Source: Candidatus Planktophila versatilis
GTDB taxonomy: Bacteria > Actinomycetota > Actinomycetes > Nanopelagicales > Nanopelagicaceae
Direction: 5' to 3'
Assembly (NCBI RefSeq): GCF_002288105.1
Contig: NZ_CP016774.1
Span: 124,001 to 188,000 of the forward strand
DNA: 64,000 nucleotides
Shown here: positions 1-41,075 of the stretch, piece by piece
How positions within the stretch are numbered: the first letter of the stretch is position 1
Layout: the number at the start of each line of letters is the position of its first letter
The notes under the pieces: generated by a model
The model's input: the letters and a program-made list of their open reading frames with translations, nothing else
Databases searched by the model: none
What the model was told of the DNA's origin: nothing
Translations under genes and position numbers: made by a program

Positions 1-1
1 T

Positions 2-262
2 TTAGTTGCCGCGCAGATTGCGCCATCGAATTTCGACCGCTATCTACGCGCCACCATCATCTCAAATAAATTATCTGGTGCTCTTGCAATGGGTGGAGTT
101 GCCGAAGCAGAGGTTCAGGCAAGGATCAGTGAGCTACTTCAGAAAAAGGCTGAGCAACTTAACGTCACAGTCAATCCTCGTTATGGCGTATGGGATGACG
201 CCTCAGGTGATTTGATTCCTGGAGATTCTGCTGGATCAGCAGTAGTTCCATCAAATAAGTAA
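2..262 (+). CDS. SurA-like protein, C-terminal end (partial)
   Basis: The reading frame is open from the window edge and stops at a TAA five bases before the mazG start. About 86 residues are visible: a charged helical stretch (QARISELLQKKAEQL) followed by a tail containing NPRYGVWDD and ending in VVPSNK. In many actinobacteria a SurA-type peptidyl-prolyl isomerase or chaperone lipoprotein lies between mfd and mazG and ends with a similar NPRYG tail. The assignment rests on that position and tail only; the catalytic and signal regions lie outside the window. Confidence 0.55.
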   Translation, partial: LVAAQIAPSNFDRYLRATIISNKLSGALAMGGVAEAEVQARISELLQKKAEQLNVTVNPRYGVWDDASGDLIPGDSAGSAVVPSNK

Positions 263-267
263 CGCTC

Positions 268-2266
<1,999 letters not shown>

Positions 2267-2275
2267 TAGCAAAAG

Positions 2276-2722
2276 ATGGCGCTCAAATCTAGTTCTGGAA
2301 AGCGAAAGAAAAGTTACCGTTCGCGGAATCTTAATTTCAATCGCCGCCAGGGATCTGGACGCTTGCTTGCTGTCACGGCAATCTTTTTTATGTTAGCCCT
2401 TTTCCTTGCACCTCCAATAAAGAATTACTTCGTTCAGCGCGCACAAATTAACGCTCTTGAATCACAGCTGAAGAGTGATAACTCAGCACTTGATGCAGCA
2501 CGCAAAGAATTACTGCTCTGGCAAGATCCTGAATATATCAAGTCTCAAGCGCGTGAACGGCTGCACTTCGTGCTGCCAGGTGAGCGGCAATACATTGTTA
2601 CCGGAACAGATGGCGAGAACTCTGACCAGCCTGCCCAGACCGATGTTGTGAGCAATCTTCCCGAAGGACAACCTTGGTATACCCGGATGATTGCCTCAAT
2701 TACCGAAGCAGGTAAAGGGTGA
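2276..2722 (+). CDS. ftsB: Septum formation initiator (FtsB/DivIC family)
   Basis: A 148-residue bitopic membrane protein. A basic N-terminal tail is followed by one membrane segment (about 30-48), a short coiled coil (about 52-85) and the conserved post-coil motif QARERLHFVLPGE (91-103). FtsB/DivIC proteins join FtsL and FtsQ in the divisome. It sits nine bases after eno and shares the GTGA overlap with the next gene, so eno, ftsB, DUF501 and ppx probably form one operon. The C-terminal tail is low in recognisable motifs. Confidence 0.9.
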   Translation: MALKSSSGKRKKSYRSRNLNFNRRQGSGRLLAVTAIFFMLALFLAPPIKNYFVQRAQINALESQLKSDNSALDAARKELLLWQDPEYIKSQARERLHFVLPGERQYIVTGTDGENSDQPAQTDVVSNLPEGQPWYTRMIASITEAGKG

Positions 2723-3219
2723 GCGCTGACAATCGCAAACCAACGGATGCAGATCTGGCTGTTATTGAAAATCAATTGGGGCGCACTCCCCGTGATGTAC
2801 ACGCTATTGCTTATCGCTGCCCCTGTGGAAAACCCGCTGTGGTTGAAACACCTCCACGTCTGAGTAACGGTGAACCGTTTCCTACTTTCTACTACGCAAC
2901 CTGCCCGCGTCTTACCGCAGCGATTTCAACTCTTGAAACAACCGGCATGATGGGTGCAATGCAAGCACGACTTGAAACCGATGCGGTATTAGCCGGTGAA
3001 TACGCAGCGGCGCACGATGATTACATTGCAGCTCGTTCTGCGCTACAGATAGATGTTCCAGAGGTAGAAAACGTATCGGCAGGTGGTATGCCCAATCGCG
3101 TCAAATGCCTGCACTCACTTATTGCTCATTCACTTTCTGCAGGACCGGGTGTAAACCCATTGGGCGATGAAGCACTTGCAGCGCTGCCCGAGTGGTGGAA
3201 GCACTTGTCATGCGAGTAG
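2719..3219 (+). CDS. DUF501 family protein
   Basis: A 166-residue protein of the DUF501 family, conserved in actinobacteria between ftsB and ppx/gppA. The region around 33-64 (RCPCGKPAVVETPPRL followed by FPTFYYATCP) holds the family's conserved cysteines, suggesting metal binding. The function is not known. It starts with GTG overlapping the ftsB stop and its end overlaps the exopolyphosphatase start, which indicates translational coupling. Confidence 0.88.
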   Translation: MSADNRKPTDADLAVIENQLGRTPRDVHAIAYRCPCGKPAVVETPPRLSNGEPFPTFYYATCPRLTAAISTLETTGMMGAMQARLETDAVLAGEYAAAHDDYIAARSALQIDVPEVENVSAGGMPNRVKCLHSLIAHSLSAGPGVNPLGDEALAALPEWWKHLSCE

Positions 3220-4118
3220 CCGCTATTGATTGCGGTACCAATTCAATTCGCTTACTGATTGCCGATATTGATGGTGCCAACTTTCGCGAAATACATCGCG
3301 AGATGGAGATTGTTCGCCTAGGCCAAGGCGTTGATAAGACCGGTCAATTTCATCCCGATGCAATCATTCGCACACTAGCTGCCGTAGATAAATTCGCAAT
3401 TGAAATAGCGAAGCGTGGCGTTGAAAAGATTCGCTTCTGTGCCACAAGTGCAACGCGCGATGCAACCAATAGAGACTTGTTTATCTATGGCGTTAAAGAA
3501 CGACTTGGTATCGGACCTGAAGTAATTCCAGGAGAAGTTGAAGCAGCGCTTTCCTTCCAGGGAGCCACGCGAGATTTCCCAGCCACAGACGGACCCTTTC
3601 TTGTCATTGATATTGGTGGGGGATCAACTGAGTTTGTCTTTGGCACCACAGATGTGGAATTTGCAAAGAGTATGAATATTGGTTGCGTCCGAATGACAGA
3701 GCGCCACTTCACTGGTGGAGATGCCAACCCGGGCCAAATTGCTGCAGCAATCGAAGATATCGATGAGGCAATTGCCCAAGCTGCCAAAATTGTTCCTATA
3801 ACTCAATCAAAGACTTTGATCGCAGTAGCTGGCACGGCAACTACTGTTGCAGCTGCTGCTCTAGAACTGCGCACCTATGACAGATATGCAATCCACCTCT
3901 CCCGAATCTCTGCCGAGAAGGTCCATGCAACTTCAAAGATGTTTCTTTCGAGCAAGCGAGAAGATCGCGAGGCACTTGGATATATGCACCCGGGTCGCGT
4001 TGATGTAATCGGTGCTGGTTCACTTGTTCTCTCACGCATCATGCTCGCAACCGGCGCTACCGAATTTGTTGCATCTGAATCAGATATTCTCGATGGAATG
4101 GCTTGGTCACTTGTATAA
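3210..4118 (+). CDS. ppx: Ppx/GppA family exopolyphosphatase
   Basis: A 302-residue phosphatase of the ASKHA fold, acting on polyphosphate and/or pppGpp. Visible motifs are the first phosphate loop DCGTNS (7-12) and the second loop VIDIGGGSTEFVFG (about 132-145). Length fits the short actinobacterial class, which lacks the C-terminal HD domain of E. coli Ppx. The ATG at 3210 lies inside the last codons of the DUF501 gene. An earlier in-frame GTG at 3192 is possible but would prefix residues not seen in the family. Confidence 0.92.
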   Translation: MRVAAIDCGTNSIRLLIADIDGANFREIHREMEIVRLGQGVDKTGQFHPDAIIRTLAAVDKFAIEIAKRGVEKIRFCATSATRDATNRDLFIYGVKERLGIGPEVIPGEVEAALSFQGATRDFPATDGPFLVIDIGGGSTEFVFGTTDVEFAKSMNIGCVRMTERHFTGGDANPGQIAAAIEDIDEAIAQAAKIVPITQSKTLIAVAGTATTVAAAALELRTYDRYAIHLSRISAEKVHATSKMFLSSKREDREALGYMHPGRVDVIGAGSLVLSRIMLATGATEFVASESDILDGMAWSLV

Positions 4119-4806
4119 GTCGATTGAATTACTTGATAAGGCAATTGTTAAATGCCATCAATGCCCTCGGTTAGTTGAGTGGCGCGAAGAAGTTGCAGTG
4201 GTAAAGCGTAAGTCATATGAAAACGAGACATACTGGGGAAAGCCAGTAACTGGATTTGGTTCAACAAAGCCCAAGATGCTCATCGTTGGGTTAGCACCCG
4301 GTGCCCACGGTGCCAACCGCACGGGGCGAATCTTCACCGGTGACTCTTCTGGTGATTGGCTCTACGGGTCATTACACCGAATCGGTATTGCAAAGATTGC
4401 AACATCTACTTCGCGCGATGATGGACAGGTACTCACAGAAACTCGAATCTCGATGGCTGTGCGTTGCGCTCCGCCAGGTAATAAACCCACCACTGAAGAG
4501 CGCGACACATGTGCACCCTATTTTGAAAACGAACTTCAACTGATTGCTCCCACAGTGAGATCTTTTGTCGCACTCGGCAACTTTGGCTGGCAGGTATTAA
4601 TCAAGTCGCTAAAGGCGCAAGGACATAAAATCCCAGCAACAAAGTTTGGACATGGATCTACGATTAAATATTCACACAACAAGATTGACTACTTAATCAT
4701 TGGTAGTTATCACCCAAGCCAACAGAACACTTTCACAGGCAAACTCACCAAGCCAATGCTCGATTCAGTGTTGAAGAAAGCAGCTAAGTTCGCGGGTATT
4801 AAGTAA
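4093..4806 (+). CDS. Family 5 (UdgB-type) uracil-DNA glycosylase
   Basis: About 237 residues, a uracil or deaminated-base DNA glycosylase with an iron-sulfur cluster. The active-site motif GLAPGAHGANRTG (about 67-79) with Ala in place of the usual acidic residue, and the HPSQQN motif near 216, mark the UdgB class. Cluster ligands fit CxxC at 21 and 24 plus two later cysteines (RCAPP and DTCAPY). The start is uncertain: ATG 4093 overlaps the ppx end, and a TTG at 4111 is also plausible. Confidence 0.85.
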   Translation: MEWLGHLYKSIELLDKAIVKCHQCPRLVEWREEVAVVKRKSYENETYWGKPVTGFGSTKPKMLIVGLAPGAHGANRTGRIFTGDSSGDWLYGSLHRIGIAKIATSTSRDDGQVLTETRISMAVRCAPPGNKPTTEERDTCAPYFENELQLIAPTVRSFVALGNFGWQVLIKSLKAQGHKIPATKFGHGSTIKYSHNKIDYLIIGSYHPSQQNTFTGKLTKPMLDSVLKKAAKFAGIK

Positions 4807-4838
4807 CTTTTCGCATAGTAGACTTCGCATCTCTATTG

Positions 4839-4911
4839 GCCCCCATAGTCCAATGGCAGAGACAGAGGACTTAAAATCCTTCCAGTATCGGTTCGAGTCC
4901 GATTGGGGGCA
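4839..4911 (+). tRNA. tRNA with anticodon UAA (Leu by codon), short variable loop
   Basis: A 73-nt cloverleaf: 7-bp acceptor stem (4839-4845 with 4904-4910), D-arm with GTC/GAC stem and GG in the loop, anticodon stem 4865-4869/4877-4881 with loop 4870-4876 and anticodon TAA at 4872-4874, T-stem 4887-4891/4899-4903 with TTCGAGT loop. CCA is not encoded. UAA reads leucine UUA, but the variable region is only 5 nt (4882-4886), so the molecule is class I in shape, unlike ordinary bacterial tRNA-Leu. It is the attachment site of the adjacent element, which restores its 3' part. Confidence 0.85.
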
Positions 4912-4912
4912 C
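4864..4912 (+). repeat. attL: left copy of 49-bp attachment repeat
   Basis: Runs from one base before the anticodon stem through the end of the tRNA plus one base. The identical sequence recurs at 12769-12817. On this side it completes the functional tRNA. Confidence 0.92.
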
Positions 4913-4914
4913 AG

Positions 4915-4940
4915 ATTCGTGCGTAAAGCGTTGCACGAAT
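4915..4940 (+). terminator. Hairpin after tRNA, possible terminator
   Basis: An 8-bp perfect stem (ATTCGTGC/GCACGAAT) with a 10-nt loop begins four bases after the tRNA. There is no proper T-run after it, so termination is weakly supported. The right half of this stem (GCACGAAT) also occurs shortly beyond attR (about 12845). Confidence 0.4.
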
Positions 4941-4968
4941 GAAGTTATTTATCAATCACCTGAATTAT

Positions 4969-4992
4969 GTATGCATACACAATGCATACACA
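4969..4992. promoter_or_regulatory. Putative integrase arm-type sites, left end
   Basis: Two adjacent copies of an ATGCATACAC motif, spaced about one helical turn apart. The same motif is present twice at 12671-12693 beside the integrase gene. Paired arm sites at both ends of an element are typical of tyrosine integrases; binding is inferred. Confidence 0.6.
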
Positions 4993-5017
4993 TTGCCTGA
5001 AGGATTTGAAGGCGATA

Positions 5018-5047
5018 ATCAGGTGCTCAGTGCCTTCCGCGCCTGAT
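5018..5047. other. Hairpin in element left end
   Basis: A 9-bp stem (ATCAGGTGC with GCGCCTGAT, one G-T pair) enclosing 12 nt. It lies in the gene-free 4913-5185 stretch, which otherwise holds only the arm sites and the inverted tRNA fragment. Confidence 0.4.
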
Positions 5048-5078
5048 CATCTGCGCTAGAGCAGGGCTCGACCTCCAT

Positions 5079-5104
5079 CTGTCTCTGCCATTGGACTATG
5101 GGGG
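5079..5104 (-). repeat. Inverted copy of the tRNA 5' half
   Basis: These 26 bases are an exact reverse complement of 4840-4865, that is tRNA nucleotides 2-27. The att repeat starts at tRNA nucleotide 26, so this fragment is almost exactly the part of the tRNA not contained in the att repeat. A plus-strand transcript across it would be antisense to the tRNA 5' half. Confidence 0.85.
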
Positions 5105-5185
5105 ACCCGGGGTTGTTAACTTTGAGCGTGCAGGTATCTGTACTACCTCTCTAGAAATATCTCCTAAATCGGATAGTCTAATAAG

Positions 5186-5668
5186 ATGAAGAGATCAGCA
5201 ACTTTAATTTCTATCTTGATTGTGATCTCGACGACAACTCACCTTCATTCTGCGAGTGCTGGAATTTTTGGTCCTAATTGCAAAAAAGTCCATCCGCAAG
5301 GAATCGACTTGAAGAATAAAATTGAGCGCAATTACAAGCTGATGATGATTCAAAAAAATCAAGGCAAAATTCAGAATGCATACACAACTTACAAAATTCT
5401 TAATAGACTCAATAATCAACTTGACGACCTAATGGGAAGTGATAAGAATTATCGGTGCTTCTTGGACGCTGAATACTCTCGGTCCACCTATGCCTGGAGC
5501 ACTGAATTTGCTGGCACGAAATATGGAGGACCTGTCAAGAATCTTTGCGCGCTTTGGGGGTACGGTTGTAAGGCGACGACAACCAAATATGCGAATCCGT
5601 GTGATGAATTCACTCTTCGCACCGATTATGTAGATTGCATCGAGGATCACGCTCGACCAACGGGTTAA
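5186..5668 (+). CDS. Hypothetical secreted protein
   Basis: 160 residues, not recognised. The N-terminus is a good Sec signal peptide: KR at 2-3, hydrophobic LISILIVIS, then a small-residue cleavage region SASAG near 22-26. The mature part has six cysteines, which could pair as disulfides after export. A third copy of the putative integrase arm motif (AATGCATACACAA) lies inside the gene at about 5375-5387. First cargo gene after the left end of the element. Confidence 0.6.
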   Translation: MKRSATLISILIVISTTTHLHSASAGIFGPNCKKVHPQGIDLKNKIERNYKLMMIQKNQGKIQNAYTTYKILNRLNNQLDDLMGSDKNYRCFLDAEYSRSTYAWSTEFAGTKYGGPVKNLCALWGYGCKATTTKYANPCDEFTLRTDYVDCIEDHARPTG

Positions 5669-5682
5669 TCACAGTGGCATCA

Positions 5683-6108
5683 ATGACAAAAGAGATTTCA
5701 ACCTTGTTTAGTGTTTTTTTCACGTCAATTCTGTTTCTCGCTGGATGTAGCAATTCTTCAAGCAATATTGGATCTAAGAATATGGCTTGTGCGTTTGTCG
5801 AGGGATATCTAGACAACAAAGCATTTGCTCTGAAAGACCTTGCTGAAGGTGGGAGTGCTAAAGAAAGTGTTGACTATTTTCTCAGCCCGCTATTGAAGGA
5901 GTTTGATGCTGACCTAGATTCCAAAGTGCTTTTTGGCGATTTTTTTGAAGCGATGATTTCTTGGGGGTCATCTGTTGATTTTGCACACGCGCAGAATAAT
6001 AGTGCGGCGATTACAAATGCAACCGTAGTCCTAGAGTCAGAAATGGATCAATTCGCGATTAGATGTGAAAACTTTGGTTGGAAATTTGAAAAAGACTATC
6101 GCCTATGA
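5683..6108 (+). CDS. Hypothetical lipoprotein
   Basis: About 141 residues, no recognised family. It begins with a lipoprotein signal: MTKEIS, a hydrophobic stretch and lipobox LAGC with the lipidated Cys at about residue 22. The frame is open upstream, but residues before 5683 would spoil the signal; a GTG at 5674 is a minor alternative. It follows the secreted-protein gene by 14 bases on the same strand, so the two may be co-expressed envelope proteins of the element. Confidence 0.6.
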   Translation: MTKEISTLFSVFFTSILFLAGCSNSSSNIGSKNMACAFVEGYLDNKAFALKDLAEGGSAKESVDYFLSPLLKEFDADLDSKVLFGDFFEAMISWGSSVDFAHAQNNSAAITNATVVLESEMDQFAIRCENFGWKFEKDYRL

Positions 6109-6125
6109 TGAAGAATTTTCAGAGA

Positions 6126-6407
6126 TTATTCAATCCAGGAAAGTAGTTCGCTCAGATTCTTAAAACCTTCATCCTCGGTCTCCAATCCTTTCATTAACAG
6201 ATCCCAAGTCCCCATTATCATCTCTAATCCAGCATCTGTTGGGGTTGCTAGACCCTCCGCGACCAAATATGCAAGTGGAACTCCGATGTCATTAAACTGA
6301 CAGAATTCTTCCCATAAGCCCTGATCTGTGTTTGCGTTATGGATTTCTCCAAGTATTTCGCAAATTGATTTGAAGTCGGTCATAATCTGAGAGTAGTTCA
6401 TTTCCAT
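6126..6407 (-). CDS. Hypothetical acidic protein
   Basis: 93 residues, strongly acidic, predicted mostly helical, no recognised domain. Its stop is 17 bases from the end of the lipoprotein gene on the other strand. Small acidic proteins on mobile elements can be antitoxins, immunity proteins or DNA mimics, but nothing here selects between these. Confidence 0.5.
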   Translation of the reverse strand: MEMNYSQIMTDFKSICEILGEIHNANTDQGLWEEFCQFNDIGVPLAYLVAEGLATPTDAGLEMIMGTWDLLMKGLETEDEGFKNLSELLSWIE

Positions 6408-6513
6408 TCAAAGGCAATACCCATTAATTGATGAATCGGGTATTTTTGGGGAGAGACGTACTCAAACGGCAGGAGGGGTAGACGCTAAGCCCAAAAAAAA
6501 CTAGATTTGTTTG

Positions 6514-6960
6514 ATGGGCTTCGAATTTAACGAACCAGCTTGGACCCCTCAGCAGGTTCTAGATTTTTGGGAAGGTGAGCACGGACCTTTATCTGATTCT
6601 TGGCGGAGAAAATTCTTGAGGGATATCTTTGTGTTAGAGATGTGCAATCAACATCCTGAACTCATTCGCGAGGCTATTGAAAAACGAAGAAAAGTTGAGA
6701 GAGCACTCGCGTACATTTATGCCACGCAAGATAGAAATATTCGAGCTGTAGAGAAGCTACTAGATGAACGTCATCCTGATCACGCGATTGGTATTGTCAA
6801 CGCTCATCACGGGAATAGAACAACTGACCCTTTTGATCCCAAGCGAGAAGATTTACTCTTTAAGTGCCAGGTGTGTAATCTGAAGCTATCCCTGCTTCGA
6901 AAATCAGAAGTAGACTTAGAAAACATCTGTAAGAGTTGCTCTGGCGAGGACGATAACTAA
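6514..6960 (+). CDS. Hypothetical protein with C-terminal zinc ribbon
   Basis: About 148 residues, family not recognised. The middle part is helical and basic (EKRRKVERALAYIY), followed by a segment rich in His and Asp. The C-terminus has CQVCN and CKSC, two CxxC pairs about 20 residues apart, which fit a zinc ribbon. A TTG precedes the ATG directly; the ATG is preferred. A GGAGGGG run at about 6472 is too far upstream to be its ribosome binding site, so the start is not firmly fixed. Confidence 0.5.
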   Translation: MGFEFNEPAWTPQQVLDFWEGEHGPLSDSWRRKFLRDIFVLEMCNQHPELIREAIEKRRKVERALAYIYATQDRNIRAVEKLLDERHPDHAIGIVNAHHGNRTTDPFDPKREDLLFKCQVCNLKLSLLRKSEVDLENICKSCSGEDDN

Positions 6961-6984
6961 ACCAGGAAGGGTTATTCTTTGATA

Positions 6985-7068
6985 ATGGAATCAAAAAAGA
7001 CGCTCTTTCGATGGGTTATTGGCTTTGCGATAGGTGCAGTTCTTTACGGAATCTTCTTGAATCTATAA
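6985..7068 (+). CDS. Putative 27-residue membrane microprotein
   Basis: A short ORF starting MESKKTLFRW, then one hydrophobic membrane-spanning stretch and ending FLNL. A purine-rich AGGAAGG lies about 15 bases upstream, longer than ideal spacing. It is followed by three more small membrane-protein ORFs on the same strand. Real expression is uncertain. Confidence 0.35.
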   Translation: MESKKTLFRWVIGFAIGAVLYGIFLNL

Positions 7069-7102
7069 CTTCCAAATTCTAATTTAGAAAAGGTTGTCAA
7101 TT

Positions 7103-7300
7103 ATGGGTGAAGCTGAAAATCGGGCAAGGCGAGAGGCCGAGTTTCTTAACGAGGAACTCCAAAATCAAAAAAACTATTACGAGGAAAGACTTAGACAACA
7201 AAAGGAAGCCTCGAAATTCTATAACCAAGATGGATTTTGGCTTGCTTTTTGGATAATCGGGCCGTTGATTTTACTCGCTTTAGGTTTTAACGTTGGTTAA
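7103..7300 (+). CDS. Hypothetical small membrane protein
   Basis: About 65 residues from the ATG: a charged, glutamate- and glutamine-rich coiled-coil-like N-terminal part (RARREAEFLNEELQNQ) and a single C-terminal membrane segment (FWLAFWIIGPLILLALGF). This layout suits a tail-anchored protein. The ORF also opens at a TTG at 7094; the ATG with an upstream AAAAGG is preferred. Unknown function. Confidence 0.45.
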   Translation: MGEAENRARREAEFLNEELQNQKNYYEERLRQQKEASKFYNQDGFWLAFWIIGPLILLALGFNVG

Positions 7301-7354
7301 CGAATATGGGCCAGACGAGGGTGGAAAAAGGTTAGCAATGAAACGTAAAGTCAT

Positions 7355-7573
7355 ATGAAATCAGAGAATCTAGATGAGTCCCATCAAGTTTATTCATCGG
7401 TGCGAGATTTGCTCGCAATATGGCTTTGGCGCATTTTTCTGATTCCAGTCTGGATTGGCGCAATAGGTTCATTTTTCGTAGGTTCATTGATCAGCAGTTT
7501 AGGAAGTCTTCTTTTCGCGACACTAATTACTGGCTTTATCTATTTGCACACATCTCGAAAGTTCGAGAAATGA
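7355..7573 (+). CDS. Hypothetical two-TM membrane protein
   Basis: 72 residues with two hydrophobic segments (IWLWRIFLIPVWIGAIG and a second after SLISSLGS). Its TGA stop overlaps the ATG of the next ORF in an ATGA, a sign of coupled translation. No family recognised. Confidence 0.5.
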   Translation: MKSENLDESHQVYSSVRDLLAIWLWRIFLIPVWIGAIGSFFVGSLISSLGSLLFATLITGFIYLHTSRKFEK

Positions 7574-7788
7574 CTAGTCAGAAACCGGATGACTATGACC
7601 ACGAAGTGAAATCAGTATTTGAGGGCGTCATCAAAGCGTTTTGGGGTCTTCTTTTTGGTATCGCTTGGGTTGGCGCAGTCTTGAATGCATTGATAAATGG
7701 CGCTTGGTTCGGAATAGTCTTTATGATCCCAGTCACTATTCTTTACTACTTTGTCCTAATCAAGAAGGATGCAATTTCTCGTTGGTAA
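7570..7788 (+). CDS. Hypothetical two-TM membrane protein
   Basis: 72 residues starting MTSQKPDDYDHEVKSVFEG, with two membrane segments (WGLLFGIAWVGAVLNALI and IVFMIPVTILYYFVLI). The frame is open upstream to 7420, but the ATGA overlap with the preceding gene points to 7570. Its length and layout match its neighbour's, so the two may form a hetero-oligomer or derive from duplication. No recognised family. Confidence 0.5.
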   Translation: MTSQKPDDYDHEVKSVFEGVIKAFWGLLFGIAWVGAVLNALINGAWFGIVFMIPVTILYYFVLIKKDAISRW

Positions 7789-7799
7789 TTGTCGTTGCC

Positions 7800-7858
7800 A
7801 AGAGATCGGATTGAACCTAAATTGAATGTACTCTTACTCCAACCCTCTGGATCGCCCA
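7800..7858 (-). pseudogene. Relic of a second zinc-finger/GIY-YIG gene C-terminus
   Basis: On the minus strand this stretch reads GDPEGWSKSTFNLGSIRSL, which aligns with GYSEAWSKSTFESKSIKEL near the end of the GIY-YIG protein at 9012-10562. At DNA level 7825-7842 and 9082-9099 are identical over 18 bases and similar beyond. No start or zinc-finger part remains, and the DUF6994 stop codon abuts it. Confidence 0.65.
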
Positions 7859-8587
7859 TTAACTAGTCTCATTCACTGACCATTCTCTTATGCGTTGGTT
7901 CCGTCGCCTGACGAACTCCAGAGTGCCCATTTTGTATTCGCGGTATTCGGCGGCAGTATCAGGAATTGGAGATCCCGCAAAAGCGTTTTTTGCCGCAGTG
8001 AAGAAATTGACTCTCTCGTAGCTGTTGTCAACGAGGTCCTGTAACAAGAAGAAGTCAACATAGCCTTGAAAGTCTTTGAAAAGGGAAAAGAAAAAGTTGT
8101 TAATGGGAGAACCAAAAGTATTCTCAAGTGGGTGTTCCAGTCTCTGGTAATGCAATCGAATACATTCCAAAGTTAAGTCAAATCTATCTGCAATCTTCCT
8201 ATTGAAACCTCTCGCACCATTTATTGTCATTCCTCCACCCTCTCTTTCCGAGGGAAAAATCAAATAACCACCTATTGTTGAACCCTTATCTCTAAATTCT
8301 TCAAATTCAGCTTGATTTATCTGACTATTTAAATGTGCGATCTTCTTTGTTCCTATATATGAGTTGGAGATGGAGTCGCTACCAAATTTGAGAGTTTGCA
8401 TATTGAATCTATATATGAGCGTTGAATTAATCTCTTCAATCTCAAACCTCTCGCCAATAGGCAATTGTTTTGACCACAGAAAGCGGTGATAGCTTCTCAA
8501 GGTAGGGCTGTAAGCATCGGGATCTTTGCCATTTGAGTCACTTCTAAAGTCAAACGATGTATCAATCTCCAAGTTTTGATGCCTCAA
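7859..8587 (-). CDS. DUF6994 family protein
   Basis: 242 residues resembling what I recall of the DUF6994 family: an N-terminal SFDFRSDSNGKDPDAYSP, then SYHRFLWSKQLP, TINGARGFNRKIADRFDLTL and a YVDFFLLQDLV segment. The family is small and without known function. Here it is the last gene of a minus-strand group that starts with the zinc-finger/GIY-YIG gene. It ends against a relic of a second copy of that nuclease, so it may have been inserted into or recombined with such a locus. Confidence 0.6.
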   Translation of the reverse strand: MRHQNLEIDTSFDFRSDSNGKDPDAYSPTLRSYHRFLWSKQLPIGERFEIEEINSTLIYRFNMQTLKFGSDSISNSYIGTKKIAHLNSQINQAEFEEFRDKGSTIGGYLIFPSEREGGGMTINGARGFNRKIADRFDLTLECIRLHYQRLEHPLENTFGSPINNFFFSLFKDFQGYVDFFLLQDLVDNSYERVNFFTAAKNAFAGSPIPDTAAEYREYKMGTLEFVRRRNQRIREWSVNETS

Positions 8588-8623
8588 ACTCTTCCGTCAA
8601 CCGCATTAATTGGTTAATTGCTG

Positions 8624-9028
8624 TCACCACCAATGTCTGTCACCAGGTTGATTGCGTAAATCTTCCATTGTTATTTCAATCGGCTCTAATGGTGACATTT
8701 CAGCCGGATCGGCCTTAACCTGTTTCGGCTTTTCTCTCATCTTACGACTTTCAAGTAAAGCATCTCTTTCAGCAACGTGTTTCAGAAATTCTTTCCGAAC
8801 TTCCTCGTCAACGGATAAATCCTGAATCACGGTATTTGCTTTGATGTCGTGAAGAACCTCTGACAATTTTCTGAACTTTTTCAATGATGGATATATAAAC
8901 TCAGAGTCATACCAAATAATCCTCGCTACAAGTGGATCACTTGTGAATACTGAATGCCACTCGGGTTCAAGTCGGCCCCATAAAACTTGCCAAGCCGCAA
9001 GTAAATCTTCGCTATCTAGTTTTGCCAT
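8624..9028 (-). CDS. Hypothetical protein overlapping the GIY-YIG gene
   Basis: 134 residues from ATG 9028 (a TTG at 9037 adds three). No recognised family. The N-terminal part is hydrophobic/aromatic and folded-looking (LLAAWQVLWGRLEPEW), and the C-terminal part is charged and probably disordered, with a proline-rich stretch. Its start lies inside the 3' end of the GIY-YIG gene, behind a GAGG at about 9045, which implies coupled translation and a functional link such as partner, inhibitor or immunity protein. Confidence 0.55.
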   Translation of the reverse strand: MAKLDSEDLLAAWQVLWGRLEPEWHSVFTSDPLVARIIWYDSEFIYPSLKKFRKLSEVLHDIKANTVIQDLSVDEEVRKEFLKHVAERDALLESRKMREKPKQVKADPAEMSPLEPIEITMEDLRNQPGDRHWW

Positions 9029-10562
9029 CAGATTCAAATTCCTCAGTTAGTCTCATCAATTCCTTGATTGATTTACTCTCAAATGTACTCTTACTCCAAG
9101 CCTCTGAATAGCCATCAAACTTTCCAGCAATCTTCTCATTGGATAAGTCGGCACCTTTTGCTTTGAGCATTCGAAGAATTGCAGTTTCCCACTCGACAGC
9201 GAGATTTCCGTCAATAGGACCTCGCACCTCAATCAGTTCCCATCCCTTTTTTTGGTGCTTAAATATGCGCTGTTCGGGAGAATTAGAGATGCCAATTTGG
9301 TACATCAACCATTCTGGATGACTTAAAAAATACAAATAGCCAGGAGTGGTTTGGTCATAGCCTGAATTGGCACAATTTGGACAGCCACTGATTCTCGCAC
9401 GGTTGTTTGTTGATGCAGACCAAATATGTTCAGGATTGTTCGAGCATTTCCATTTTTTCTTTGCCATTGAACCTGCTGTGACCGTAGTGGGATCCCATTC
9501 GAAAGCTTCACTTGCAATCTGGGGGTGAGTTGTCTTGAGATCGTTTTCACCTACTAAGATTTTTCTATTCGAACAGAAAGGACAGCCTGCAAGCGAATTG
9601 AGCTGGGCTCGCCAGAGGTGCTTTGGATTCTTCTTGCATTTCCAATTAAGTCGCTTGTTGCTACCTCGCGAATAAAGAGATGGGTCCCAGCCGTTAGCTA
9701 GTTCCGCAATTTCTGGATGAGTTGTTTCTAAATCATTAAAGCCGACAAGTACCTGATGCCCCGAGCAGTACGGACATCCTCGCCCATTAACTCTATTACC
9801 GGGAGTGTCTTTCCAGATATGATCCGCAGAAACCTTGCACTTCCAAGTTTGTAAAACACCACTAAAACTTCGAAATTGTGTTGGATCCCAATTATATGCC
9901 TCCGCAGCAATCTCAGGATGCTTGGTAGCTAAATCGTTTTGACCGGAGAAAACTTTGCGATGAGAACAGTAAGGGCAGCCACCCCCAGCTGTTCTTGCCG
10001 CAATAGTCGCAAACCAAATGTGGGAATTGTCTTTTGGGCAAATCCACTGAACTCTTTTCGAGCTACCCCGTGAGTACCGTGTAGGGTCAAATCCGGATGC
10101 CTGGAGCGCCAGTTCAGGAAACTCTGTTGCAAGGTCGTTCATTCCTGGAACTATTTTTCTGTTTGCACAGTATGGACAACCGGTTCCACTCGTTCGGTGC
10201 TTAATGCTCGCTTCCCAGATGTGCAACGAGTTTTTGGAGCAAATCCAAGAGACTCTTTTGTCACTCTTTGTTGAAAATCGCGACGGATCCCATCCATTGG
10301 CCTCCAAAGCCAACTCAGGGTAAACAGTCAGCAAATCCGTTTTACCTGATATGACTCTGTTTCCTGAACAGTAGGGGCAACCACGACCACTAGTTCTCTT
10401 ATTCGGTGAGGCTTCCCAGGAGTGTGTTTCGTCAGCTGAACATATCCAAGGAAGATTCTTGTTTACCCCAAAAGTAATTAATGAGGGATCCCATCCATCA
10501 GCTTCCTTAGCCAACTCAGGATGCGTTACAGAAAGTGGAAGCTTTTCCTTTTTACTAGGCAC
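9012..10562 (-). CDS. Six-repeat zinc-finger (DUF4379-like) protein with GIY-YIG-like nuclease domain
   Basis: 516 residues. Six tandem units of 64-67 residues (10-76, 77-143, 144-210, 211-277, 278-341, 342-407) each contain HPELA, a WDPS-type motif, W-x-C, a His before x-W, and GCPYC. This gives one C-H-C-C zinc site per unit, for example C41/H47/C62/C65. This matches the DUF4379 'probable zinc-ribbon' family. Residues 408-495 look like a T5orf172-type GIY-YIG nuclease: YLYFL, YQIGIS (421-426), R432, H436 and a Glu in VEWETAIL (E459). The start is a GTG with a TAATAT box just upstream, compatible with a leaderless mRNA. Likely a DNA-binding endonuclease; target and role unknown. Confidence 0.75.
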   Translation of the reverse strand: MPSKKEKLPLSVTHPELAKEADGWDPSLITFGVNKNLPWICSADETHSWEASPNKRTSGRGCPYCSGNRVISGKTDLLTVYPELALEANGWDPSRFSTKSDKRVSWICSKNSLHIWEASIKHRTSGTGCPYCANRKIVPGMNDLATEFPELALQASGFDPTRYSRGSSKRVQWICPKDNSHIWFATIAARTAGGGCPYCSHRKVFSGQNDLATKHPEIAAEAYNWDPTQFRSFSGVLQTWKCKVSADHIWKDTPGNRVNGRGCPYCSGHQVLVGFNDLETTHPEIAELANGWDPSLYSRGSNKRLNWKCKKNPKHLWRAQLNSLAGCPFCSNRKILVGENDLKTTHPQIASEAFEWDPTTVTAGSMAKKKWKCSNNPEHIWSASTNNRARISGCPNCANSGYDQTTPGYLYFLSHPEWLMYQIGISNSPEQRIFKHQKKGWELIEVRGPIDGNLAVEWETAILRMLKAKGADLSNEKIAGKFDGYSEAWSKSTFESKSIKELMRLTEEFESDGKTR

Positions 10563-10579
10563 CGCATAAGGATATTAGG

Positions 10580-10809
10580 CACGACTGACGTCGTGAAGGA
10601 GTGGGACTGCATCGAGTGCGAACGCTAGTGAGCCAACTGTTCGGGTGCTCCTTTCAGAGCCCCCTCATATCAACTGTCAGTCAGGCGACCTCTCGGTCGC
10701 ACTCCGATGCAGCCCTTTGTAGACCGAATCTTAAATCGTCGGTCTCCTACAGGTACTGGAACTAAGTTCCAATAGAGACACTTCCTCCTTGGTAATTAAC
10801 CCGAAGGGT
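10580..10809. other. Hairpin-rich non-coding segment (RNA or origin candidate)
   Basis: No ORF fits. Stems seen: 10580-10585/10590-10595 (6 bp, perfect); 10608-10621/10697-10711 (14 bp, one bulge) around an inner GGG(T)GCTC/GAGCCCC hairpin; 10685-10690/10695-10700 (6 bp), which competes with the 14-bp stem; 10718-10727/10739-10751 (10 bp with a 3-nt bulge); 10757-10762/10766-10771 (6 bp); 10799-10802/10806-10809. It lies between the GIY-YIG gene and the winged-helix gene, both on the minus strand. It may be a structured RNA or leader, or an origin next to an initiator gene. Confidence 0.5.
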
Positions 10810-11306
10810 CACTGATTCCGGCCCTTTTGTTCACCCCTTAATGAGTAAACAAAACCGCCGCAGCCCCAGTGCACCTTGCCAAGTGGACTAGAGGCGTATT
10901 CGCCACGACTCAGTTTCTTCGCGCAGGCAAAGCACCTTGCCACGATTTTTTTGTAAGGTTGTGCAACTTCATTCATTCGGCCCGAGTCCCAGCAAGCAAA
11001 CTGAATAAAGTACTTGATCCTTGCTTGTACTCCATTGGGGTACTTCACGGACTTGATGAATCCATATTCGTGAAGAACTTTCAATCCTTCACTCACCGAA
11101 CTTCTCCCCAACCCAGCCGCTTTCGCGATAGTTGTATAGCTTGGGAATACGGCGTTGTTGTTCTTGCCCATATATGAGACAAGTGCCAACAGCACCTTTT
11201 GTGCGTTGTATTGTTTGGCCCTTCCTAATACCTGATAAGCAGGTACTGGGAACGGTGTGTAGAGACTTCCTTTTGGTAGATGGAAGTTTCCATTTTCATT
11301 ATGCAT
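10809..11306 (-). CDS. Winged-helix zinc protein, possible replication initiator or regulator
   Basis: 165 residues. Residues 35-92 form a clear winged helix-turn-helix of the HTH_36 kind (AQKVLLALVSYM, FPSYTTIAKAAGLGRSSVSEG, LHEYGFI). The C-terminal part has CFAC (125-128) and HWGC (146-149), a probable zinc site. Proteins of this layout are common as replication initiators or regulators on phages and integrative plasmids. It sits between the integrase and the hairpin-rich segment, which fits either role; no direct evidence separates them. Confidence 0.6.
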   Translation of the reverse strand: MHNENGNFHLPKGSLYTPFPVPAYQVLGRAKQYNAQKVLLALVSYMGKNNNAVFPSYTTIAKAAGLGRSSVSEGLKVLHEYGFIKSVKYPNGVQARIKYFIQFACWDSGRMNEVAQPYKKIVARCFACAKKLSRGEYASSPLGKVHWGCGGFVYSLRGEQKGRNQ

Positions 11307-11442
11307 CGGTTACTCGTTTCTGTGTTTCCACATTAATCACAAGAACCCCAGCCTCGCAGAAGAAAATATATGTCTGATTTCGGAAACGACTCGGATAGCC
11401 ACGCATTCCCAAAATGAGATAAAAAGAACAAAAAAAGTTACT

Positions 11443-11471
11443 AAAAAAATGGGAAATTATTACCACTTCCC
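11443..11471 (-). terminator. Terminator of the integrase gene
   Basis: On the minus strand, 13 bases after the integrase stop, GGGAA pairs with TTCCC across an 11-nt loop, followed by a run of seven T (read from 11449 down). The rest of the gap to the winged-helix gene (11307-11442) is AT-rich with no feature seen. Confidence 0.7.
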
Positions 11472-11483
11472 GCCTTGAAATAC

Positions 11484-12611
11484 TCAGATTGAAAATAGGG
11501 CCCTATTCATCAAATTTGCTGCTTCAACTTGCGGTTTGAGAGCACTATGGACGTATAACTTTGATGTGATGGCGCTCGAAGAGTGCCCTAAAGCCCTGCT
11601 AATGACTTCTATGCCCACTCCCTGGCCATACATAAGGGTTGCCGCAGTATGGCGTGCATCGTGCAGCCTTCTTGGCTTGATTCCACAGAGCCTGAGTGTC
11701 CGCTTCCAATCATTGAAATCAATAGTGGATTGCTTGGGAGTTCCATCAGTCGCAGGAAACACCAAGTCATTTTCCTGCCATTGGCTACTGCATCCAGAGC
11801 GCATCTCATCTACTAGCTTCTTGTGAAATTTCAGGGACTCAACGGATCCTGAAGTCAGCACCAGCAAGCGCCTAGAGCGCTCAGTCTTCAAACCTGTTAG
11901 CTGTCGCTTCCCATCGATCATCTGAATCTGATTGCGAACTTCAAGTACTCCATTTACTAAATCAACATCCTGCCAGCGAAGCCCCAAAGCTTCGCCCTGC
12001 CTTAAACCACAGAGAAGTGCAATGTGAAGCCGAGCAGACATATAAGTCTCCTTGTATGTCTCTAGAAGTCGTTTCACCTCCTCAATAGTCAGAGGCTCGA
12101 TCTCTCGAGTCTTATTTACCGGAATCCGCACTTTCTTTACTGGATTACTTGGTATGTACTCATTGTTCTCAGCTTCACCAAGTGCCACTGATAAGAGTGC
12201 TCGAGCTTGTTGTTGAGATCGAGGGCTCTGTCCAGCCTCACGCATCGTTGTAAGTACAAATTGAATATTGCTAGGAACTATCTTGCGTAATGGTATCTGG
12301 CCGATTACCGGAACGATGTGATGGGTAGCTAGTGCTCGGTATCTCTTCCACGTTGAGTGAGCAATCTGATGCTTATGCTCTTCCTCTAACCACGTAAAGA
12401 GATAAGTACCGAGGGCAATCTTTGATTGTGGGAGAGCGTTCTTATTCCCCAGTAGCTTAGGGAGTTTTTCAATCTTCTCCTTGGCGCGTTGGCGAGAGAG
12501 CTGCGACGTCGGCGCCATCGCGGTAACAGATTGATCACCTCTGCGAATAACAGTTCTATATGACCTACCAACCTTGTACGTATAACCTTGACCATTTGCT
12601 TTGCGAGACAT
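11484..12611 (-). CDS. int: Tyrosine site-specific integrase
   Basis: 375 residues. It has an N-terminal AP2-like arm-binding part, a SAM-like core-binding domain (about 64-150) and a catalytic domain with the full set of active residues: R204 in CGLRQGEALGLRW, H317 and R320 in RRLHDARH, H343 in LGHSSSAITS, and the nucleophile Y353. It catalyses integration at, and with a partner excision from, the tRNA gene. The frame is open to 12689, but an AAGGA site precedes the ATG at 12611 and the longer start would overlap the arm sites. The gene lies at the attR end. Confidence 0.9.
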   Translation of the reverse strand: MSRKANGQGYTYKVGRSYRTVIRRGDQSVTAMAPTSQLSRQRAKEKIEKLPKLLGNKNALPQSKIALGTYLFTWLEEEHKHQIAHSTWKRYRALATHHIVPVIGQIPLRKIVPSNIQFVLTTMREAGQSPRSQQQARALLSVALGEAENNEYIPSNPVKKVRIPVNKTREIEPLTIEEVKRLLETYKETYMSARLHIALLCGLRQGEALGLRWQDVDLVNGVLEVRNQIQMIDGKRQLTGLKTERSRRLLVLTSGSVESLKFHKKLVDEMRSGCSSQWQENDLVFPATDGTPKQSTIDFNDWKRTLRLCGIKPRRLHDARHTAATLMYGQGVGIEVISRALGHSSSAITSKLYVHSALKPQVEAANLMNRALFSI

Positions 12612-12670
12612 TACACATTCCTTAGAACCACCACTTGCCGTATGCAAGTGTGGAACCGGTGCCATTTCAG

Positions 12671-12693
12671 AATGCATACATAAATGCATACAC
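12671..12693. promoter_or_regulatory. Putative integrase arm-type sites, right end
   Basis: Two copies of AATGCATACA about 12 bp apart, matching the pair at 4969-4992. They lie just upstream of the integrase gene, so bound integrase could also repress its own promoter. A 10-bp hairpin with one bulge follows at 12714-12741, between these sites and attR. Confidence 0.6.
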
Positions 12694-12768
12694 TCCTACA
12701 AGTTTCACAGAATCCAGATTCGATTCACGCTCGAAATCTGGTAATTCTGGAAACCTGGAAGTCCTTTA

Positions 12769-12817
12769 AGAGGACTTAAAATCCTTCCAGTATCGGTTCG
12801 AGTCCGATTGGGGGCAC
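12769..12817 (+). repeat. attR: right copy of 49-bp attachment repeat
   Basis: Identical to 4864-4912, a tRNA 3' fragment without its 5' half and so not a functional tRNA. It is preceded by a 7-bp inverted repeat (AAGTCCT/AGGACTT, 12759-12777) that overlaps its start and may be a core integrase site. Confidence 0.92.
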
Positions 12818-26647: not shown

Positions 26648-26673
26648 AAAATTTCACCGCCCACAAGGATTAT

Positions 26674-27765
26674 CTATAATTCTCGTTTTTCGATCTCAGG
26701 TACGACTTTCTCAAGCCACTCGTCGTAACTGATTTTAAATTGCTTTTCAAAGGCAACTTTCCACTTCTCACTGTCTTGACCAGGTGTATTAACAATAGCT
26801 TTCGTAAAAGATAAAAGTGCTTCATGGCCGAATTGATAAATAAGTTGTTCTACAAGTAGCCGACCTGCCTCATATCCACCCTCTTGGGAGCCGCAGGCAA
26901 CACCGCTAAATCCAGTTCCAAGTCGCTTGGCGGCAGTCATGAGATCCTCTTTTTTAAACCTTTTGTGCCAAGAAAAAACTTCTTTGAACTCCGAGAAATT
27001 TTTGGCTGTTCCAAGCACACTGCCGTAATAAACCTGTTGACCCTCGTTCAGCCAACAAGGCAGTAGCTCGTCCCGCTTTTCTGACCAAACTCGTTGCATG
27101 TGGCCAACTACCTCATGCTCAACAATAGTTTTCCAAACAATATCTCGTGGATTGGTGCAATCATTTGGATAAAGAGTGAATTGAAGTAATGCAGAACCAT
27201 CTGACGTACCCATACTACCGGCGTTCGACAACTTGCAACGATTACCGCTATTTAGATTACCTTTGAACCAAGCTCCCCATTCAGCATGGCCTCCTGCATT
27301 TGCTGGATCTGCTTTAGTAAATTCTTGTACCATCCATGCAGTATTCTCATTATCTCCAATTACGATATGGAAATTAATGCTTGCTGCTTCGTCTCCAAAA
27401 AATTTGAGAACATTAGTTGTACGATTTCCTATTTCACTAACTTCTGACTGCTTAACTGAAGAATGTGAGATTATTTGAATATCATTTTTAGGTGAATAAT
27501 CCTTATTTGCATTATAGATAAGCCGTACACTGTTATATGCCTGTTCTCTTGCATCCATGTTTTTCCCAGGAGATTGCGAAGCTCCCTTATTCCAAACCAG
27601 CTTCTTTCCAGTTTTGATGCAGGTATATTTCTTGCCGAGAACCACTTCTGTGTTACCTGCTTGAGTGCACTTAGCGCCTGCTTTGGCAGCAGCGTTTGCT
27701 GGCAGAAGGGGAATTGATAGGAAGAGAGAAAGTATTGATAAGAATGCAATGAGCTTCTTAGCCAT
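26674..27765 (-). CDS. Secreted zinc metallopeptidase-like protein
   Basis: 363 residues. Sec signal peptide with cleavage near ANAAAKA (about 24-28), followed by a short Cys-flanked segment (C33 to C49, with GKKYTCIKTGKKLVW) that looks like a cell-surface repeat. The main domain has HEVVGH (217-222) and WLNEG (238-242), the HExxH plus downstream Glu pattern of gluzincins. It probably hydrolyses peptides outside the cell. No named family is recognised. The local DNA looks AT-richer than the genes around it, which may signal a recent arrival. Confidence 0.65.
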   Translation of the reverse strand: MAKKLIAFLSILSLFLSIPLLPANAAAKAGAKCTQAGNTEVVLGKKYTCIKTGKKLVWNKGASQSPGKNMDAREQAYNSVRLIYNANKDYSPKNDIQIISHSSVKQSEVSEIGNRTTNVLKFFGDEAASINFHIVIGDNENTAWMVQEFTKADPANAGGHAEWGAWFKGNLNSGNRCKLSNAGSMGTSDGSALLQFTLYPNDCTNPRDIVWKTIVEHEVVGHMQRVWSEKRDELLPCWLNEGQQVYYGSVLGTAKNFSEFKEVFSWHKRFKKEDLMTAAKRLGTGFSGVACGSQEGGYEAGRLLVEQLIYQFGHEALLSFTKAIVNTPGQDSEKWKVAFEKQFKISYDEWLEKVVPEIEKREL

Positions 27766-38600: not shown

Positions 38601-38848
38601 GTCGCATCGACGCTGTTTATCAGACCAGTAACGGTTTTGAAGTAGTCGACTGGAAGACTGGCTCGAAGACTTTAGGTGAATCATCTGCGGTGCAGCTAGC
38701 TGTCTATCGACTTGCCTGGGCTAAGTTGCAGTCAATTGCAGTTGAGCAGGTCTCGGCCGCTTTTTATTATGTGCCGATAAATAAAACAGATCGGCGAGCA
38801 AATCTTCTGAGTGAAGATGAGCTCACCGACCTGTTATTACTTAAGTAA
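35636..38848 (+). CDS. adnB: AdnB-like helicase-nuclease subunit
   Basis: 1070 residues. Walker A AGAGSGKTET (46-55), Walker B VLLDEYQDTS, helicase motifs LTFTRKAAGEL and TVHMAKGAEWD, and a C-terminal RecB-like nuclease with GRIDAVYQ and EVVDWKTGS. Partner of AdnA; each subunit brings a motor and a nuclease. The stop is one base away from the katG stop on the other strand. Confidence 0.92.
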   Translation: MIEKYTPDEVAKMIISIDPTFHLPSDEQRPIISIFDNPLEPAVVIAGAGSGKTETMAARVVYLVANGFARPDQILGLTFTRKAAGELNTRIRKRLRQFQQAADKQGIERTFSSLETAVTTYHSYAGRLLSEHAIRYGIDADVQPLGEAALWMSANKLVREWDDGIFNTNDAASTVVKDLLGLTSMVLEHRVSVDQIRSADEKVLEELAQMTGATNEETRKVAKVLNQRIAMLPMMQAFLEERRKSGELSFDDQIALAADIAVNFADVGVLERAKYPVVLLDEYQDTSQSQVRLLSALFGGGHPVTAVGDPCQSIYTWRGASSGTISAFNANFPKAEGATGKKVYELLTTYRNDKSILALANEISAGVRELEGINVAALKPHEHAGAGDLTCGIFENVDAEAAAIAEYFTPLWNNPSRLQPHLKVPRTFAVLVRKRAQIALIQEALAKAGIPSEVLGLGGLVHVPEIADLVAMLKIINNPSAGASLMRHLTGARINLGPRDIAALGRFARSRSEALSSDSRSIVKNIVAGNPASAEADDQFIGSVIDALDEIERCDKSKFSSAGYQRLASFASDLRRLRSRASAPITDLIVEIERYLNLESEVMLRDGGTHGRRHLDRFMDEAAKFARSGGSLSAFLQWLDVASEEEGGLKAGAPEADASVVQILTVHMAKGAEWDVVAVPGLAQGTFPGANASDPDNWITNERHIPFSLRGDADILPTFSWNASTTNAQAKKAIDAFAQECVDFKMREEIRLGYVAITRARTHLFCSTSFWRDGAKPVQPSVLYEKVQQIASQCGTVLSAPTAPESTDRNPAKDIEITAQWPQDPLGDKRAAFDRTVALVESAAPLNLDAPAPAELAELVEDARAIIAEFEEFKLGARDVALPPRLSTSTLIALHEDPVELARNIRRPMPRAMDEYSHRGTAFHLWIENHFNAKTLFDDEDFDLITPFEQDQKLEDLKTKWLASEWAKLQPYAVEVPFETVIAGVLVRGRIDAVYQTSNGFEVVDWKTGSKTLGESSAVQLAVYRLAWAKLQSIAVEQVSAAFYYVPINKTDRRANLLSEDELTDLLLLK

Positions 38849-38849
38849 T

Positions 38850-41075
<2,226 letters not shown>

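Follow-up and report, generated by a model that had tools for sequence, protein, structure and literature searches.

PICIs carry their replication origin directly 3′ of rep (PMC6092414), and the oriV of SGI1, an integrated island, is located directly downstream of rep (PMC7433901). PICIs are further marked by an integrase with a specific att site, by two sets of iterons around an AT-rich stretch, by a primase and a terminase small subunit, and by phage-induced excision and packaging in helper particles, and the SGI1 oriV contains four 17-bp iterons and a DnaA box. Two other kinds of element bear comparison, i.e., RepL-type small plasmids (PF05732 and relatives), whose initiator is a small winged-helix protein, and homing nucleases, either free-standing or carried by introns, that have treble-clef-like repeats (cf. 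PMC12350094) and in which DUF4379/CapR-like repeats precede the nuclease domain and spread is cassette-like.

The element that we analyze here, from Candidatus Planktophila versatilis, resembles the PICI/SaPI elements in being small and integrase bearing and in having a conserved cis region immediately after an initiator-like gene (PMC6092414), and it has an integrase, a 49-bp att site and an empty counterpart site. However, in place of the two iteron sets around an AT-rich stretch described in that paper, it has a GC-rich segment with a conserved hairpin, and neither a primase nor a terminase small subunit was recognized in its scanned genes. It likewise resembles SGI1 in being an integrated element with a cis region directly downstream of a rep-like gene, but has neither the iterons nor the DnaA box given for oriV in PMC7433901. 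RepL plasmids share the small winged-helix initiator, but the seven compared show no structured stretch in common after rep, with fold z scores of −3 or lower in two of seven. The homing nucleases share the repeat architecture and manner of spread, but there is no Rfam intron match here, and the nuclease gene is part of an element that encodes its own integrase. The literature covered, including passages of PMC10872708, PMC12350094, PMC6092414, and PMC7433901, and with subscription journals thinly represented, describes neither elements nor RNAs of this kind for this bacterial group.

Results

The window, i.e., the whole 64,000-nucleotide stretch analyzed (G000:C1:124001-188000), belongs to a 1.33-Mb genome in one contig, and the hairpin-rich segment lies within a 7.9-kb element (4913-12817) integrated in a tRNA-Leu gene. 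The left att repeat (4864-4912, 49 bp) is located in the true tRNA-Leu gene (4839-4912) and is identical to the right att repeat (12769-12817), the second att copy and the right end of the element. These borders follow from G335, another genome of the same species, which contains an empty site with the same 49 bp and joins window positions 1-4912 directly to 12769 onward, so that the flanks are contiguous and the 49-bp overlap is identical at both ends and at the empty site. ARAGORN also calls a tRNA-Leu at 12729-12817, where Rfam gives no match, and this call is read as a displaced copy of the tRNA-Leu. Elsewhere in the window, 26650-27583 is unalignable to G335 between well-aligned flanks, a gene replacement within the species.

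Four parts of the element follow one another on the minus strand: a tyrosine integrase gene (11484-12689; PF00589, 3.5e-25; phrog_1, 9.2e-62), a winged-helix (wH) gene (10809-11306), the hairpin segment, and a nuclease gene (9012-10562). The element also carries as cargo a DUF6994 gene at 7859-8587 (1.1e-77). No terminase, capsid, or relaxase was recognized among the element proteins scanned. A second element with defined ends, of 5.9 kb and bounded by 44-bp tRNA-Lys att repeats, is present in G264 (L055:3842-9780), and contains an integrase gene, a wH gene, a hairpin locus, a small ORF, and a nuclease gene.

The wH gene encodes a replication-initiator-like protein (HTH_36; PF13730, 1.5e-11) that resembles phage replication initiators (phrog_270 at 2.7e-8, plus others), and plasmid RepL proteins match it at best at 2e-5, with 33-47% identity over 31-55% of the protein among the matches listed. 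The sequence-only reading was right that the segment adjoins a replication-initiator-like gene. The protein scores 14 bits against PF05732, the family of RepL plasmid initiators, where the cut-off is 20.3, and so falls outside it. Its predicted structure is of middling confidence (pLDDT 66), and the fold matches are generic winged helices, regulators above all; on this model, matches to the initiators 4pt7, 4pta, 5kbj, and DnaD 2v79 do not rise above those to unrelated winged helices.

The wH gene is rare. It occurs in 7 of 296 family genomes, i.e., the window copy and those in G086, G106, G207, G264, G290, and G365, and a second search of the family genomes returned the same seven. In 394 genomes of the class, matches were limited to two of these known carriers, and a scan of genome contigs found only the loci already known in G086, G207, and G365. 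The named relatives of the gene are in actinobacterial metagenome-assembled genomes. Neither relatives nor motifs were found in the viral contigs searched, and phages gave two weak matches, neither covering 80% of the query, and none with the G264 protein as query.

The gap between the wH gene and the nuclease gene is non-coding and its flanking genes are co-directed. On the minus strand, 10563-10808 folds as RNA at −97.5 kcal/mol (z −4.64, with 0 of 200 shuffles as good), and on the plus strand at z −2.71 (2 of 200). When the window was tiled, with 20 shuffles per stretch, the 230 nt at 10580-10809 gave a minus-strand z of −5.8, and only 1 of the 277 other minus-strand stretches was lower. 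That stretch, 38760-38989 (z −6.3), lies where two convergent genes meet and is probably a shared terminator. The segment had been described as densely structured with mutually exclusive stems, and as an observation this holds: it folds far better than its shuffles, and the stems named earlier are present. Among them are the stem of 14 bp, interrupted by one bulge (10608-10621/10697-10711), and the GCGACC/GGTCGC hairpin of 6 bp (10685-10690/10695-10700), both exactly as given and with bases in common. The idea that the two compete is nevertheless weakened by G086, the closest relative. There the 6-bp hairpin is present, unchanged and hence without covariation, but the 14-bp stem is not conserved: part of one strand survives, yet the counterpart of the stem reaches only −9.2 kcal/mol versus −24.2 in the window, to whose copy this stem is specific.

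Comparison of the elements showed that the segment consists of two modules, A behind the wH gene and B at the start of the nuclease gene, and that only part of it is conserved; what is left of the 230 nt is a hairpin-bearing spacer of low conservation, together with the nuclease gene's 5′ end. Module A (10773-10710, minus strand) lies directly behind the wH gene and comprises a 27-nt conserved motif, ATTGGAACTTAGTTCCAGTACCTGTAG (10747-10773), and a hairpin, P1 (10710-10758; 5′ arm 10758-10739, 3′ arm 10727-10710), with the 3′ end of the motif forming the 5′ arm of P1. A motif-like sequence (consensus ATTGGTACTTACTTaCAGTaTCTSTAG) follows the wH stop codon in all seven elements, at distances of 38 nt in the window, 55 in G086, 72 in G106, 1 in G207, 19 in G264, 23 in G290, and 41 in G365, with 16 of 27 columns invariant in the five of the seven that were aligned. 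The G264 motif keeps only the 3′ core, and the G106 copy is weak, recognized by eye from GGTATTTACTT alone. A 24-mer pattern allowing up to two mismatches was found in 6 of 296 family genomes, five of them wH genomes in which the match immediately follows the wH gene; the remaining genome, G273, matches with two mismatches, and a reversed-pattern control matches four genomes. The conserved region is longer in G207 and G264 than in the window, as these two (L052:5948-6420 and L055:5412-5900) share extra pieces around AGTTCAAA, TAGGGGCAGC, and GGGTCAAAC..TTGACC, and have a small ORF behind module A.

The 3′ arm of P1 varies among elements yet fits its own 5′ arm. MAFFT does not align these 3′ arms, so pairs were counted by hand in place of a covariance model: in six of the seven elements (G106 omitted because its arm differs, and 3′ arms chosen by eye), 60 of 63 cells are paired, with changes on both sides at 4 of 12 positions. 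More trustworthy than these counts is a permutation test that used all seven elements with no selection, and in which the duplex of each 5′ arm with its own downstream 100 nt was summed and set against permutations of the arms. On the sense strand, only 6 of 5040 permutations did as well with a 12-nt arm, 19 of 5040 with a 20-nt arm, and 49 of 5040 with a 20-nt arm starting 8 nt earlier. Four of five shifted-arm controls (8/24, 117/120, 70/720, and 645/5040) were not notable, and a shift of +40 gave 127/5040. When each arm was tested singly against shuffled downstream sequence, p was 0.60 for the window, 0.17 for G086, 0.75 for G106, 0.0005 for G207, 0.069 for G365, 0.0035 for G290, and 0.068 for G264, with a combined p of 1e-4; P1 is therefore supported across the set, but not by the window copy taken by itself. 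Covariation in homologs, the check proposed in the sequence-only reading, thus revealed compensatory change in P1 but none in the 14-bp stem.

This strand-specific signal bears on the main rival reading, in which module A, while not the origin, would be a 3′-UTR element or an independent small RNA derived from the wH transcript that controls the initiator or the element's copy number. A sense bias speaks for it, as the hand-aligned P1 contains six G.U pairs versus one A.C on the sense strand, and the permutation test gave weaker antisense values (85/5040 for the 12-nt arm and 524/5040 for the 20-nt arm). Over the 220 nt behind the wH stop, the sense z is also lower than the antisense z in six of seven elements (sense/antisense: window −5.0/−3.2, G086 −4.0/−3.8, G106 −3.6/−3.4, G207 −5.6/−3.4, G365 −9.0/−8.0, G290 −5.0/−2.3, and G264 −1.3/−1.9). 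However, neither a promoter-like site nor an Rfam relative was found, the structure beyond P1 differs among elements, and the single-arm test is not significant in the window, G086, or G106, and we regard such an RNA as possible though doubtful. The sequence-only reading had recognized no known RNA family in the segment, and the Rfam covariance search bears this out, as 10400-11000 and the G264 region gave nothing even at E ≤ 10. A group I/II intron or HEARO-like RNA before a homing nuclease was rejected for want of a match at that threshold. At gathering score, the window and the six other loci gave only tRNAs. Seven sub-threshold matches occur in the G207 region, and the best, RefA1, is taken as chance at 28 bits against a cut-off of 94.

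Module B (10500-10597, minus strand) comprises the hairpin CACGAC-GTCA-GTCGTG and the conserved start of the nuclease gene, which encodes DUF4379 treble-clef repeats with a GIY-YIG-like C-terminus (PF14311, 6.9e-69; phrog_681 endonuclease, 1.4e-44); the GIY-YIG match is weak, below cut-off, and seen only in the homologs L011 and L012. The sequence TTCACGACGTCAGTCGTG occurs exactly at four places in the 199 genomes searched (the window, a second place in the same genome, G086, and G106), and at all four it continues into the beginning of a gene for a DUF4379 nuclease, with both ends of these genes close at the DNA level and the middle different. The second place in the same genome, outside the window (L010:3140-5119, G000:C1:191139-193118), is another treble-clef/GIY-YIG-like nuclease gene that starts with the module B hairpin and has neither a wH gene nor module A. 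It is flanked by a membrane-protein gene and by prfB, which adjoin in G018 with ~330 nt between the aligned parts, and it looks like a mobile cassette. Because module B is conserved at all four nuclease genes, including the one without module A, it belongs to the nuclease cassette.

One might therefore suppose that the segment serves this cassette, as a regulatory leader or a mobilization end, and both the DNA conservation of module B and the L010 cassette, which begins at the module B hairpin outside any wH element, agree with this. Such a role accounts only for 10597 and below, since only the last ~20 nt of the segment and the gene start belong to the nuclease gene, and four of the seven elements (G207, G365, G290, and G264) have no co-directed nuclease gene directly downstream of module A. 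We consider it improbable, and of the roles first proposed for the segment, an origin and an RNA remain live while a nuclease-gene leader is not supported for the conserved hairpin. The nuclease gene is a recurrent cargo: nucleases of one broad family are present in six of seven elements (assigned by phrog_681 in the window, G207, G365, and G264, and by alignment to the window in G086 and G106), in varied places and directions, and no nuclease gene was seen in G290 before the contig end. A P0001-like nuclease was absent from all five searched genomes that lack the element (G335 included) and present in both of those that have it. That six of seven elements carry a nuclease of this broad family hints at a role of the nuclease in element or anti-phage biology.

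A packaging or transfer site (cos/pac or oriT) of a satellite or mobilizable element would suit an element that is small and in which no structural or transfer genes were recognized, and the module B hairpin is followed by TATCCT-like bases, which we take to be reminiscent of P-type nic regions. The same lack of a recognized terminase, capsid, or relaxase counts against such a site, however, and replication better explains the invariable association with the wH gene, making this the least probable of the readings.

Discussion

We tentatively favor module A as a cis-acting replication locus (an origin, or an RNA tied to one) in a small integrative element, and our best reading is that such elements form a new group. 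The replication locus is our first choice because the wH protein is initiator-like and because PICIs and SGI1 offer precedents for an origin 3′ of rep. What is firm in this reading is that the element exists, with att sites and an empty site, that the motif keeps its position behind the wH gene, and that P1 shows compensatory change. Beyond this, we infer that the wH protein is an initiator that acts at module A, and that the circle replicates. The integrase would excise a 7.9-kb circle, the wH protein would act at the locus immediately 3′ of its gene's stop codon, initiating or licensing replication, and in the course of this the strand-specific hairpin would become exposed as a single strand or a transcript. 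Against a replication locus stand the lack of iterons, of a DnaA box, and of an AT-rich stretch (below), the RepL plasmids, in which a structured stretch right after rep is not the rule, the generic matches of the mid-confidence wH model, and the strand bias, which favors an RNA.

An iteron-type origin is rejected, since the window copy has no iterons, no DnaA box was matched within one mismatch in 10500-11500, and there is no AT-rich stretch. At 52.4% GC, against 48.1% for the window, the segment offers no melting region. Repeats behind the wH gene occur only in G086 (two 16-bp copies) and G290 (two 28-bp copies), the latter an exact tandem repeat (L054:5430-5485) and the most iteron-like feature seen.

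A more specific proposal, which we hold to be rather unlikely as it stands, is that the wH initiator and the covarying strand-specific hairpin behind its stop codon form a new iteron-free unit, in which the hairpin, as RNA or single-stranded DNA, serves to start the replication of a new group of minimal integrative elements (integrase, initiator, hairpin locus, and treble-clef nuclease) of streamlined freshwater actinobacteria. The analysis provides an exactly delimited cis locus, open to testing, for the replication of small tRNA-integrated elements in bacteria with very small genomes, and the hairpin, if it acts as RNA or as a single strand, would amount to a replication signal linked to the initiator and free of iterons.
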